From Pomphorhynchus laevis (Eukaryota > Acanthocephala > Palaeacanthocephala > Echinorhynchida > Pomphorhynchidae): a stretch of DNA of 64,000 nucleotides. A program made the translations under genes and the position numbers. Location of the stretch: contig WNNJ02002419.1 in NCBI GenBank assembly GCA_012934845.2, forward strand, positions 62,001 through 126,000. Direction: 5' to 3'. Within the stretch, counting starts at the first letter, position 1; each line of letters opens with the position of its first letter. Shown here in pieces: positions 60,691 to 62,199 of this stretch. The notes beneath the pieces are model-generated. The model was not told the DNA's origin, searched no databases, and was given only the letters and a program-made list of their open reading frames with translations.

Positions 60691-61062
60691 TATATTATTG
60701 TGTTATATATTTTACTATGTTCTGCTTGATGTTATTTTTATAGTAACCTAGTTTAAAATATGTATCTATTAAATTATTTTTTAAATGATAAGTAATATTA
60801 AAACAAAGATAAATACAGGGGAACGTTTGTCTTCTTCGTAGAGAAATGTCATTCTTTTAGGAGAACTGGCTTAAATTATTTAAATAATTTTGAAGAAAGC
60901 CAATATCATTACATATTGTTGCAATTCTTAAAATTTCATTTTTTAATGTATTATATTTTATATTATATGGTATAGAATGAATAATTGCATACACAAGCGA
61001 GTATCATCATTTGGTCGGCTTCATAAATTATCCTCGTGTGAATTCTTTAATCCTAGATGCAG

Positions 61063-61150
61063 CACTGTACACTACAATCAGCGTAGGTGGACCTCATCAG
61101 CAGTGAGCCTACGCCAACTTTCGTGTTTCGGTCCTTTAATGATCTGCTGA
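61063..61150 (-). ncRNA. Hammerhead module with strands in 2-1-3 order (61-kb array, unit 1)
   Basis: On the minus strand: GGACC (61,134-61,130), GAAAC (61,129-61,125), stem III 5' strand (61,124-61,108), CACTG (61,105-61,101), CTGATGA (61,100-61,094), GGTCC (61,093-61,089), stem III 3' strand (61,087-61,071), GTA (61,070-61,068), CAGTG (61,067-61,063). Stem I CACTG/CAGTG and stem II GGTCC/GGACC are perfect. Stem III is about 19 bp including the core A-U and C-G, with two purine mismatches. Predicted cleavage follows the A of GTA. Confidence 0.7.
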
Positions 61151-61430
61151 AATTTTCCTCTGCTGCCTTTCTGTAAAAACGAACGATACAGTTTGTAAGG
61201 AAAACATTTCCACTTGTGCAAACTGTACTTTTTTCCGTCTTTTGTAACAAAAAGACGGAGATAGCACTACAGTTGCCGGAAACAACCGACAATTTGTCTT
61301 TTGAATTTTCTTGACAGGAAACAAGAATCTGCCAGGTTAATAGAATGAATAATTGCATACACGAGCGAGTATCATCATTTGGTCGGCTTCATAAATTATC
61401 CTCGTGTGAATTCTTTAATCCTAGATGCAG

Positions 61431-61503
61431 CACTGTACACTACAATCAGCGTAGGTGGACCTCATCAGCAGTGAGCCTACGCCTACCTTTCGTGTTTCGG
61501 TCC
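61431..61503 (-). ncRNA. Hammerhead module with strands in 2-1-3 order (61-kb array, unit 2)
   Basis: Same layout as unit 1: GGACC and GAAAC at 61,503-61,494, CTGATGA at about 61,457-61,463, and GTA at 61,438-61,436. All core bases are intact. The CTGATGA strand of this unit can pair with the GAAAC and GTA strands of unit 1 to form a normal hammerhead, and unit 3 supplies the strand for this unit. Confidence 0.7.
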
Positions 61504-62199
61504 TTTAATGATCTGCTGAAATTTTCCTCTGCTGCCACTCTGTAAAAACGAACGATACAGTTTGTAAGGAAAACATTTCCACTTGTGCAAAATGTACGTT
61601 GTTTCCGTCTTTTGTAACAAAAAGACGGAGATAGAACTACAGTTGCCGAAAACAACCGACAATTTGTCTTTTGAATTTTCTTGACAGGAAACAAGAATCT
61701 GCCAGGTTAATAGAATGAATAATTGCATACACGAGCGAGTATCATCATTTGGTCGGCTTCATAAATTATCCTCGTGTGAATTCTTTAATCCTAGATGCAG
61801 CACTGTACACTACAATCAGCGTAGGAGGACCTCATCAGCAGTGAGCCTACGCCTACCTTTCGTGTTTCGTGATCTCCGTCTTTTTGTTGGTCAACCTAAG
61901 CTGGTTGTAGTGTACAGTGCTGCATCTAAGATAAAAGAATTCACTCGAGGATTATTTATGAAGCCGACCAAATGATGATACTCGCTCGTGTATGCAATTA
62001 TTCATTCTATTAACCTGGCAGATTCCGGTTTAATGTCAAGAAAATTCAAAAGACAAATTGTCGGTTGTTTCCGGCAACTGTAGTGCTATCTCCGTCTTTT
62101 TGTTACAAAAGACGGAAAAACGTAGAGTTTGCACAAGTGAAAATGTTTTCCTTACAAACTGTATCGTTCATTTTTACAGAAAGGCAGCAGAGGAAAATT

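Follow-up and report, generated by a model that had tools for sequence, protein, structure and literature searches.

Putative hammerhead ribozymes of the GCS strand order in retrozyme-like tandem repeats of Pomphorhynchus laevis

The tandem array and its hammerhead strands

The window analysed here is a stretch of 64,000 nucleotides from the acanthocephalan Pomphorhynchus laevis (assembly GCA_012934845.2, contig WNNJ02002419.1, positions 62,001 to 126,000 of the forward strand). A repeat scan of the window revealed a tandem array of 2.4 units at 60972-61869, each unit being about 370 bp long (97% identity). On the minus strand, each complete unit contains the three strands of a hammerhead ribozyme in the order GAAAC, CUGAUGA, GUA. 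This agrees with a preliminary description of the same DNA, which had recognised the non-canonical order and knew of no description of it. The order is, however, already in print: Eckert et al. 2023 (Nucleic Acids Research (NAR), PMC10085705) divided the hammerhead into the blocks C, G and S, and the arrangement found here corresponds to their type GCS.

Read along the minus strand, a complete unit runs GGACC-GAAA-CAC ... GGCGTAGG-CT-CACTG-CTGATGA-GGTCC-A-CCTACGCT ... GTGTA-CAGTG. In unit 2, the 3' strand of stem II (GGACC) at 61499-61503 is followed by block G at 61492-61498, which is composed of GAAA and the 5' strand of stem III, with ACAC starting at the final A of GAAA. The two strands of helix IV, GGCGTAGG on the 5' side (61476-61483) and CCTACGCT on the 3' side (61448-61455), enclose block C at 61457-61473, so that the stem I 5' strand CACTG, the core CTGATGA and the stem II 5' strand GGTCC are placed in the loop of hairpin III/IV. 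Block S at 61431-61440 provides the 3' strand of stem III (GTGT), the A at 61436, 3' of which the cut is predicted, and the 3' strand of stem I (CAGTG). Unit 1 likewise bears a complete GCS hammerhead at 61063-61134. In the minus-strand direction, the first base of block G is 61498 in unit 2 and 61129 in unit 1, and that of block C 61468 and 61100; the predicted cuts after 61436 and 61068 delimit a fragment of 368 nt, which reproduces the positions and the length given earlier. In the edge unit (61806-61869), the 3' strand of stem II is gone at the array edge while blocks C and S are intact. Its C block suffices for the core of the pair formed by units 3 and 2, which is intact, as described, despite this loss.

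Both complete units keep the conserved core intact (CUGANGA, GAAA and the UH preceding the cut), and the core-adjoining stems I, II and III comprise 5, 5 and 4 bp in both. Stems I (CACTG/CAGTG) and II (GGTCC/GGACC) were found as described. Stem III (ACAC/GTGT) had been taken for a helix of about 19 bp; it actually consists of 4 bp, above which an internal loop of 9/8 nt leads to the separate helix IV of 7-8 bp (in the unit at 61129, the upper helix has 12 bp).

An Rfam search of the array 60972-61869 returned no hammerhead, as is expected for the GCS strand order, and neither Rfam nor a circular scan found the canonical cyclic order C-G-S of types I-III within one unit. When the unit 61341-61710 was circularised, GCS was the sole arrangement above the scan thresholds. 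The longest listed stop-to-stop frame in the array has 111 aa; no search against protein families was made for this frame. The array alone proves little, since compact strand sets in any order are not rare by chance: 7 matches with at least 14 bp appeared in 60 shuffled windows. When a match had to include helix IV and follow the GCS order, 5 were obtained in the window, from three families (A, E and F, introduced below) and all of them strict; 200 second-order Markov windows yielded 31 loose matches and 1 strict match. In a viral-contig control, 42 sites had the block-C 17-mer; none of them combined it with the G block and stem II, and none was a ribozyme. A free search for hammerhead strands over 900 nt was dropped, being swamped by chance matches, many of them in TA repeat. 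The array units themselves are too alike for covariation to show.

Eight families and the covariation of their stems

Relatives were searched in the 249-Mb host genome. The pattern CGAAAC, CTGANGA, GTA in GCS order, which required the core words alone and no stem, gave 1968 genome matches versus 174 for the reversed pattern. Of the 1968 matches, 100 were listed, and 20 sites were drawn from those listed; 19 of these come from families in which intact members possess hammerhead stems, and the remaining one is from family D. Family D was rejected as a GCS ribozyme, as the single fetched member (L070) has the core words in order but no stems. The pattern excluded G at position 10.1 and therefore drew decayed copies; later family members came from similarity searches.

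Eight families with GCS order were obtained (A, B, C, E, F, G, H and J), and the array described above belongs to family A, for which at least 270 genome matches exist. Unit lengths are 370 bp in A, 398 in B, 393 in E, 364 in F, 357 in H and 365 in J. A first look gave 509 candidates for A, 1421 for B, 2323 for C, 1502 for F, 1755 for G, 1146 for H and 1258 for J, with 36-40 scored in each. The families display two architectures: A, B and C have an internal loop of 8-9 nt per strand between stem III and helix IV, and in E to J the two helices are nearly continuous, up to 15 bp without a bulge in family F. In families E, F, G, H and J, a single base bulges out at the foot of stem II or close to it. 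The core letters CUGANGA, GAAA and UH are intact in intact members of all eight families, which is partly due to selection, as sites lacking the CUGANGA or GAAA word were left uncollected.

The sequence of stem I changes from family to family on both sides of the helix: CACTG/CAGTG in A, AGCAG/CTGCT in B, TCCGA/TCGGA in E, TTCTA/TAGAA in F, TCCTA/TAGGA in H and TACTA/TAGTA in J. For a quantitative account, 71 sites with both core words were reduced to 56 distinct ones by grouping and trimming (L103 yielded no site, and L108, which is without most of helix IV, was excluded by hand). In an alignment of 20 sequences hand-chosen from these 56 sites, decayed copies omitted, 97.8% of the 180 cells of stems I and III were paired compared to 72.4% in shuffles. 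None of 500 shuffles reached this value, slid partners gave 24-56%, and 46 cells were double-sided. With one chosen representative per family, 39/40 pairs formed in stem I, 40/40 in stem II, 32/32 in stem III and 63/64 in helix IV; when the partners were permuted among the eight representatives, this pairing was equalled in 4, 12, 72 and 1 of 40320 permutations, respectively. With the majority consensus of all 56 sites, where some column fits are misplaced in the decayed copies L055, L062, L065 and L078, the corresponding numbers among 40320 permutations were 4 (stem I), 12 (stem II) and 432 (stem III). Counted at fixed positions in all 56 sites, decayed ones included, pairs were present at 244/280 positions in stem I, 235/280 in stem II and 210/224 in stem III (L062 was shifted by hand, and the one-base longer L107 is misplaced). 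Stems I, II and III as well as helix IV covary across the families, and the stems are an independent test since the search pattern had asked for core words and no stem. The genomic relatives thus do covary in stems I-III, a point on which the preliminary description had staked its claim.

Insertion form and surrounding elements

The array, with the minus strand as RNA strand and an outer 3' end about 96 nt after the cut, is the left arm of a larger family A insertion. An inverted right arm follows on the plus strand at 61889-62304; it consists of partial units, the ribozyme region is partly deleted, and its outer 3' end lies at unit position about 66. The element including this arm ends at 62304 and is flanked by the 12-bp direct repeat ATTATATGGTAT, the left copy of which (60962-60973) overlaps the array edge with its last bases, while the right copy occupies 62299-62310. 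The earlier span thus holds for the array but not for the whole element, which is larger. The attribution of the array to a multicopy, retrozyme-like element was borne out.

Among family A insertions, the 3' ends of the sense strand are fixed and the 5' ends variable. Two arms in opposite orientation were present in 10 of 20 fetched stretches (L031-L050), in addition to the window. Both outer ends were visible in nine two-armed family A insertions, L034 and L040 running into the contig end. In eight of the nine, the arms are arranged tail-out, and, measured past the ribozyme cut, one outer end falls at 61-66 nt and its counterpart at 89-99 nt; L047 is the exception, with a left arm that stops at unit position 295. 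Seven of the nine are bordered by direct repeats of 12-20 bp (exactly 12 bp in five), as is the one family B insertion inspected; a scripted search found none at the edges of L038 and L047. When flanks were cross-combined as a control, the longest match among 90 combinations was 8. Families H and B exhibit the same two-armed form, and so does F in part, where the end of the stretch cuts it off; family H sits in TA repeat, which makes a target-site duplication unreadable. Families A, B and H have in common an outer end near 61-62. In some arms the units are identical (9/9 in L040, 4/4 in L031). Altogether, the copies of A, B, H and partly F are retrozyme-like: they form tandem arrays, are often two-armed, and have fixed outer ends and mostly 12-bp duplications.

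Open frames with reverse transcriptase (RT) lie elsewhere in the window; the array has no frame for RT or GIY-YIG endonuclease. Several Penelope-like open frames, some interrupted, occupy both strands of 15059-24728, and one of them has a GIY-YIG match slightly below the cut-off. The Penelope-like frame at 17187-19106 has at least 120 relatives; among those listed, identity ranges from 28 to 52%, and the ones with organism names are animals. The insertion products are as expected from retrotransposition of the Penelope-like kind, with fixed internal starts and extension from both target strands.

Copies or fragments of five families (A, C, E, F and G) are found in the window. On the plus strand, a family F GCS hammerhead with a III/IV helix of 15 bp and no bulge lies at 3840-3940 (predicted cut after 3911), and a family E hammerhead at 6052-6152 (predicted cut after 6122). 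A family G copy on the minus strand (6721-6820) has one mismatch each in stems I and II. Family E also forms an array at 20861-21709 (plus strand, period 393, 2.2 units), which begins about 200 bp past a Penelope-like open frame and holds a complete GCS hammerhead at 21212-21270; in a further copy at 21593-21693, GAAA is changed to AAAA. An Rfam search of this 393-bp array returned no hammerhead. Two diverged partial copies of family C (76-77% identity) are located at 29670-29752 (minus) and 29912-29980 (plus). In circular scans of single units, no hammerhead arrangement was found in the repeats at 27540-27863 (162 bp), 30157-30565 (210 bp), 31790-32550 (310 bp) and 62696-63360 (about 214-240 bp).

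Canonical type I hammerheads (Rfam RF00163) occur in another tandem element of the host genome at a spacing of about 296 bp, for example at C2913:307-3156 and C1798:33327-35971 (L089, L090); the candidates scored contained 65 RF00163 matches, three of them below the cut-off. Directly left of the family A array, 60400-60627 is a near-perfect inverted repeat (83-nt arms, 98%) with sub-cut-off matches to the MIR172 model on both strands, probably merely an effect of the long hairpin. The region 39548-41581 (minus strand) encodes a protein-tyrosine phosphatase domain that is 82-95% identical to a number of P. laevis proteins. The top three hits of the frame are Pomphorhynchus laevis proteins at 92-95%, and the same frame includes a stretch that looks transposon-derived.

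Ribozyme assembly within or between units

Based on the two-armed products, the extension of both target strands by Penelope-like elements and the likeness to animal retrozymes, we regard the array, with a probability of about 0.8, as a single insertion of a retrozyme-like, non-autonomous element with a putative type-GCS hammerhead ribozyme in its RNA. Animal retrozymes are short hammerhead tandem repeats that live as circular RNA (Cervera and de la Peña 2020, NAR, PMC7229834). The portrayal of metazoan retrozymes in that paper resembles the present elements in three respects, namely tandem repeats (170-400 bp) in which no gene is recognised, target-site duplications and Penelope-like elements alongside, but retrozymes have a type I hammerhead instead of the GCS order, and two-armed insertions with two fixed ends, as seen here, are not part of that portrayal. 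The purified protein of a Penelope-like element is able to cut and extend both strands of the target, with an internal start on its template (Frangieh et al. 2024, PMC11167929); by analogy, such an activity could make two-armed products from a circular or multimeric template. Poseidon of Anolis, as presented there, shares the internal RT start, the cutting and extension of both strands, tandem copies and a hammerhead motif with the arrays, but encodes RT and endonuclease, whereas the arrays are without recognised coding sequence.

Among the natural non-circular permutations, the account of Eckert et al. (PMC10085705) counts 583 predicted sequences of type SGC and two of type CSG. Type GCS is represented in that account by one bacterial sequence without covariation, GCS-1 of Caballeronia peredens, the RNA of which cleaved in vitro at 0.014 per min and incompletely, with a relevance that the authors call unclear. 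Going by the main-text description of GCS-1, the 5'-3' block order G, C, S and the mutual crossing of all three core stems are the same here, but the present set comprises eight covarying families in mobile tandem repeats of a eukaryote, with a covarying helix IV around block C. The literature searched held no earlier natural GCS set supported by covariation and mentioned type GCS only in PMC10085705. The order is hence already named in print, and the natural covariation support is new as far as the literature was searched.

Several observations weigh against a GCS ribozyme or against its assembly between units. By eye, 38 of the 100 listed pattern rows are family D, and with so numerous a family, the fetched member of which lacks stems, the excess of 1968 over 174 matches is not all ribozymes; many single copies are decayed. 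In family A, conservation of the ribozyme columns does not significantly exceed that of the remaining unit (variation averages 0.0072 versus 0.0137, with medians of 0.0066 and 0.0065 and p = 0.10; among 370 circular shifts the ribozyme ranks 44th), in a test that is biased because local alignments trim mismatches at unit ends, where the cut was set. Units of one arm differ at a median of 5 places compared to 7 between loci, so that clean identity is absent from most arrays. Family A also has an additional GTACAGT, some 100 nt upstream of block G, that gives a weaker SGC order; this order had 120 matches beside 123 for GCS in L031-L050. In the six families computed, the nested two-unit fold lies 8-28 kcal/mol above the predicted minimum, since the first hairpin must open, in a programme that cannot hold this hairpin and stems I and II together (family E is represented by one site, and C was left out). 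Stems I plus II and helix IV are of similar energy in most families.

That the strand sets have no ribozyme function of the GCS kind appears improbable. A conserved hairpin for protein binding or reverse transcription, with an incidental likeness to the hammerhead, would account for the strength and conservation of hairpin III/IV and for the fixed outer ends close by; yet the loop pairs with its two flanks, through stems I and II, at positions exactly beside CUGANGA, GAAA and UH, and these stems covary across the eight families, which makes this explanation quite improbable. Very improbable is another hammerhead order, either a misread canonical type I, II or III or, in family A, an SGC order with the upstream GTACAGT as substrate. 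In its favour, canonical type I hammerheads do exist in the same genome, in another element with a spacing of about 296 bp, and the SGC arrangement, mostly with stems of 4/5/2 bp, recurs in many family A units. However, no Rfam hammerhead was found in the array, the unit 61341-61710 gives GCS alone above the thresholds and does not keep the SGC substrate, and the SGC arrangement was judged incidental, as its stem III has mostly 2 bp. More probable, although we think it rather unlikely, is a type-GCS hammerhead working within one unit as a double pseudoknot, in which helix IV would either open or, in families A-C, bend back on itself at the internal loop so as to brace stems I and II; monomers and circles could then re-cut. 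Cleavage by GCS-1 (PMC10085705) indicates that such a pseudoknot can exist, which is also why the earlier claim that the hammerhead cannot form in one unit does not follow from strand order alone. The internal loop of 8-9 nt per strand in A-C is a possible hinge, and the energy of stems I and II roughly equals or exceeds that of helix IV, so that a one-unit fold with helix IV open, at a cost of about what stems I and II bring or less, remains a candidate. Against it, idealised helices place the loop end 70-83 Å from the end of stem II when III and IV are formed and stacked, with linkers reaching 13-32 Å; in this geometry 6-8 layers of III/IV must open. The bulge-free 15 bp of III/IV in family F speak against such opening, and covariation of helix IV across the eight representatives would be odd if function needed it open.

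Assembly between neighbouring units is slightly favoured for the predicted cleavage. Helix IV, paired in 63/64 positions across the eight representatives, would make the one-unit fold sterically awkward, which favours the two-unit claim. Between two units all helices can form at once in a non-nested manner, with the loop of one hairpin docking on the base of the next. The "fully nested" two-unit hammerhead proposed earlier is correct only with the III/IV hairpin of the first unit open, and does not apply otherwise. As the non-circular order puts the catalytic strand in the loop of a hairpin whose base is the substrate, we tentatively consider, at a little less than even odds, a topologically locked, domain-swapped hammerhead: a unit could not cut itself, only multimers would be cut, and a circle would be safe from re-cutting.

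Cooperation of two units has parallels. Lünse and colleagues reportedly found in 2017 that mini-hammerheads of Penelope-like elements cut better as dimers. Such dimer-favouring hammerheads have the canonical strand order, and a weak stem III is the reason. Two repeat units cooperate there as well, but here the order itself puts the catalytic strand into the hairpin loop. Amphibian retrozyme hammerheads, too, are reported to cut better as dimers (PMC7229834).

The cycle that we propose would begin with transcription of a genomic array into a multimer. In each unit, as sequence and covariation show, the GAAAC and GUA strands flank hairpin III/IV, with the CUGAUGA strand in its loop. The loop of one unit may then pair through stems I and II with the base of the neighbouring hairpin and cut this neighbour, which would free an RNA of 368-370 nt. 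By analogy with animal retrozymes, the unit RNA would be ligated into a circle. A Penelope-like RT/endonuclease would presumably cut both target strands and initiate copying from two fixed positions within the unit, which lie about 62 and about 96 nt past the ribozyme cut, with several rounds of the circle per side. The outcome would be two tail-out arms between target-site duplications, the products observed in the genome.

Of the six possible hammerhead strand orders, GCS is the one that its discoverers left without covariation support, and a group of covarying GCS families from a single animal genome would make the natural set complete and assign this order a biological role in mobile RNA. 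The eight families with their two architectures provide material on whether the ribozyme acts only between units, which bears on circle closure. If true, the locked hammerhead would mean that transcripts are trimmed to unit length and that the resulting circles are safe from re-cutting, and it would explain how the abundant retrozyme circles of animals avoid linearising while carrying an active ribozyme. As canonical type I and GCS hammerheads share this genome, a single host allows one to study how a non-circular permutation arose.
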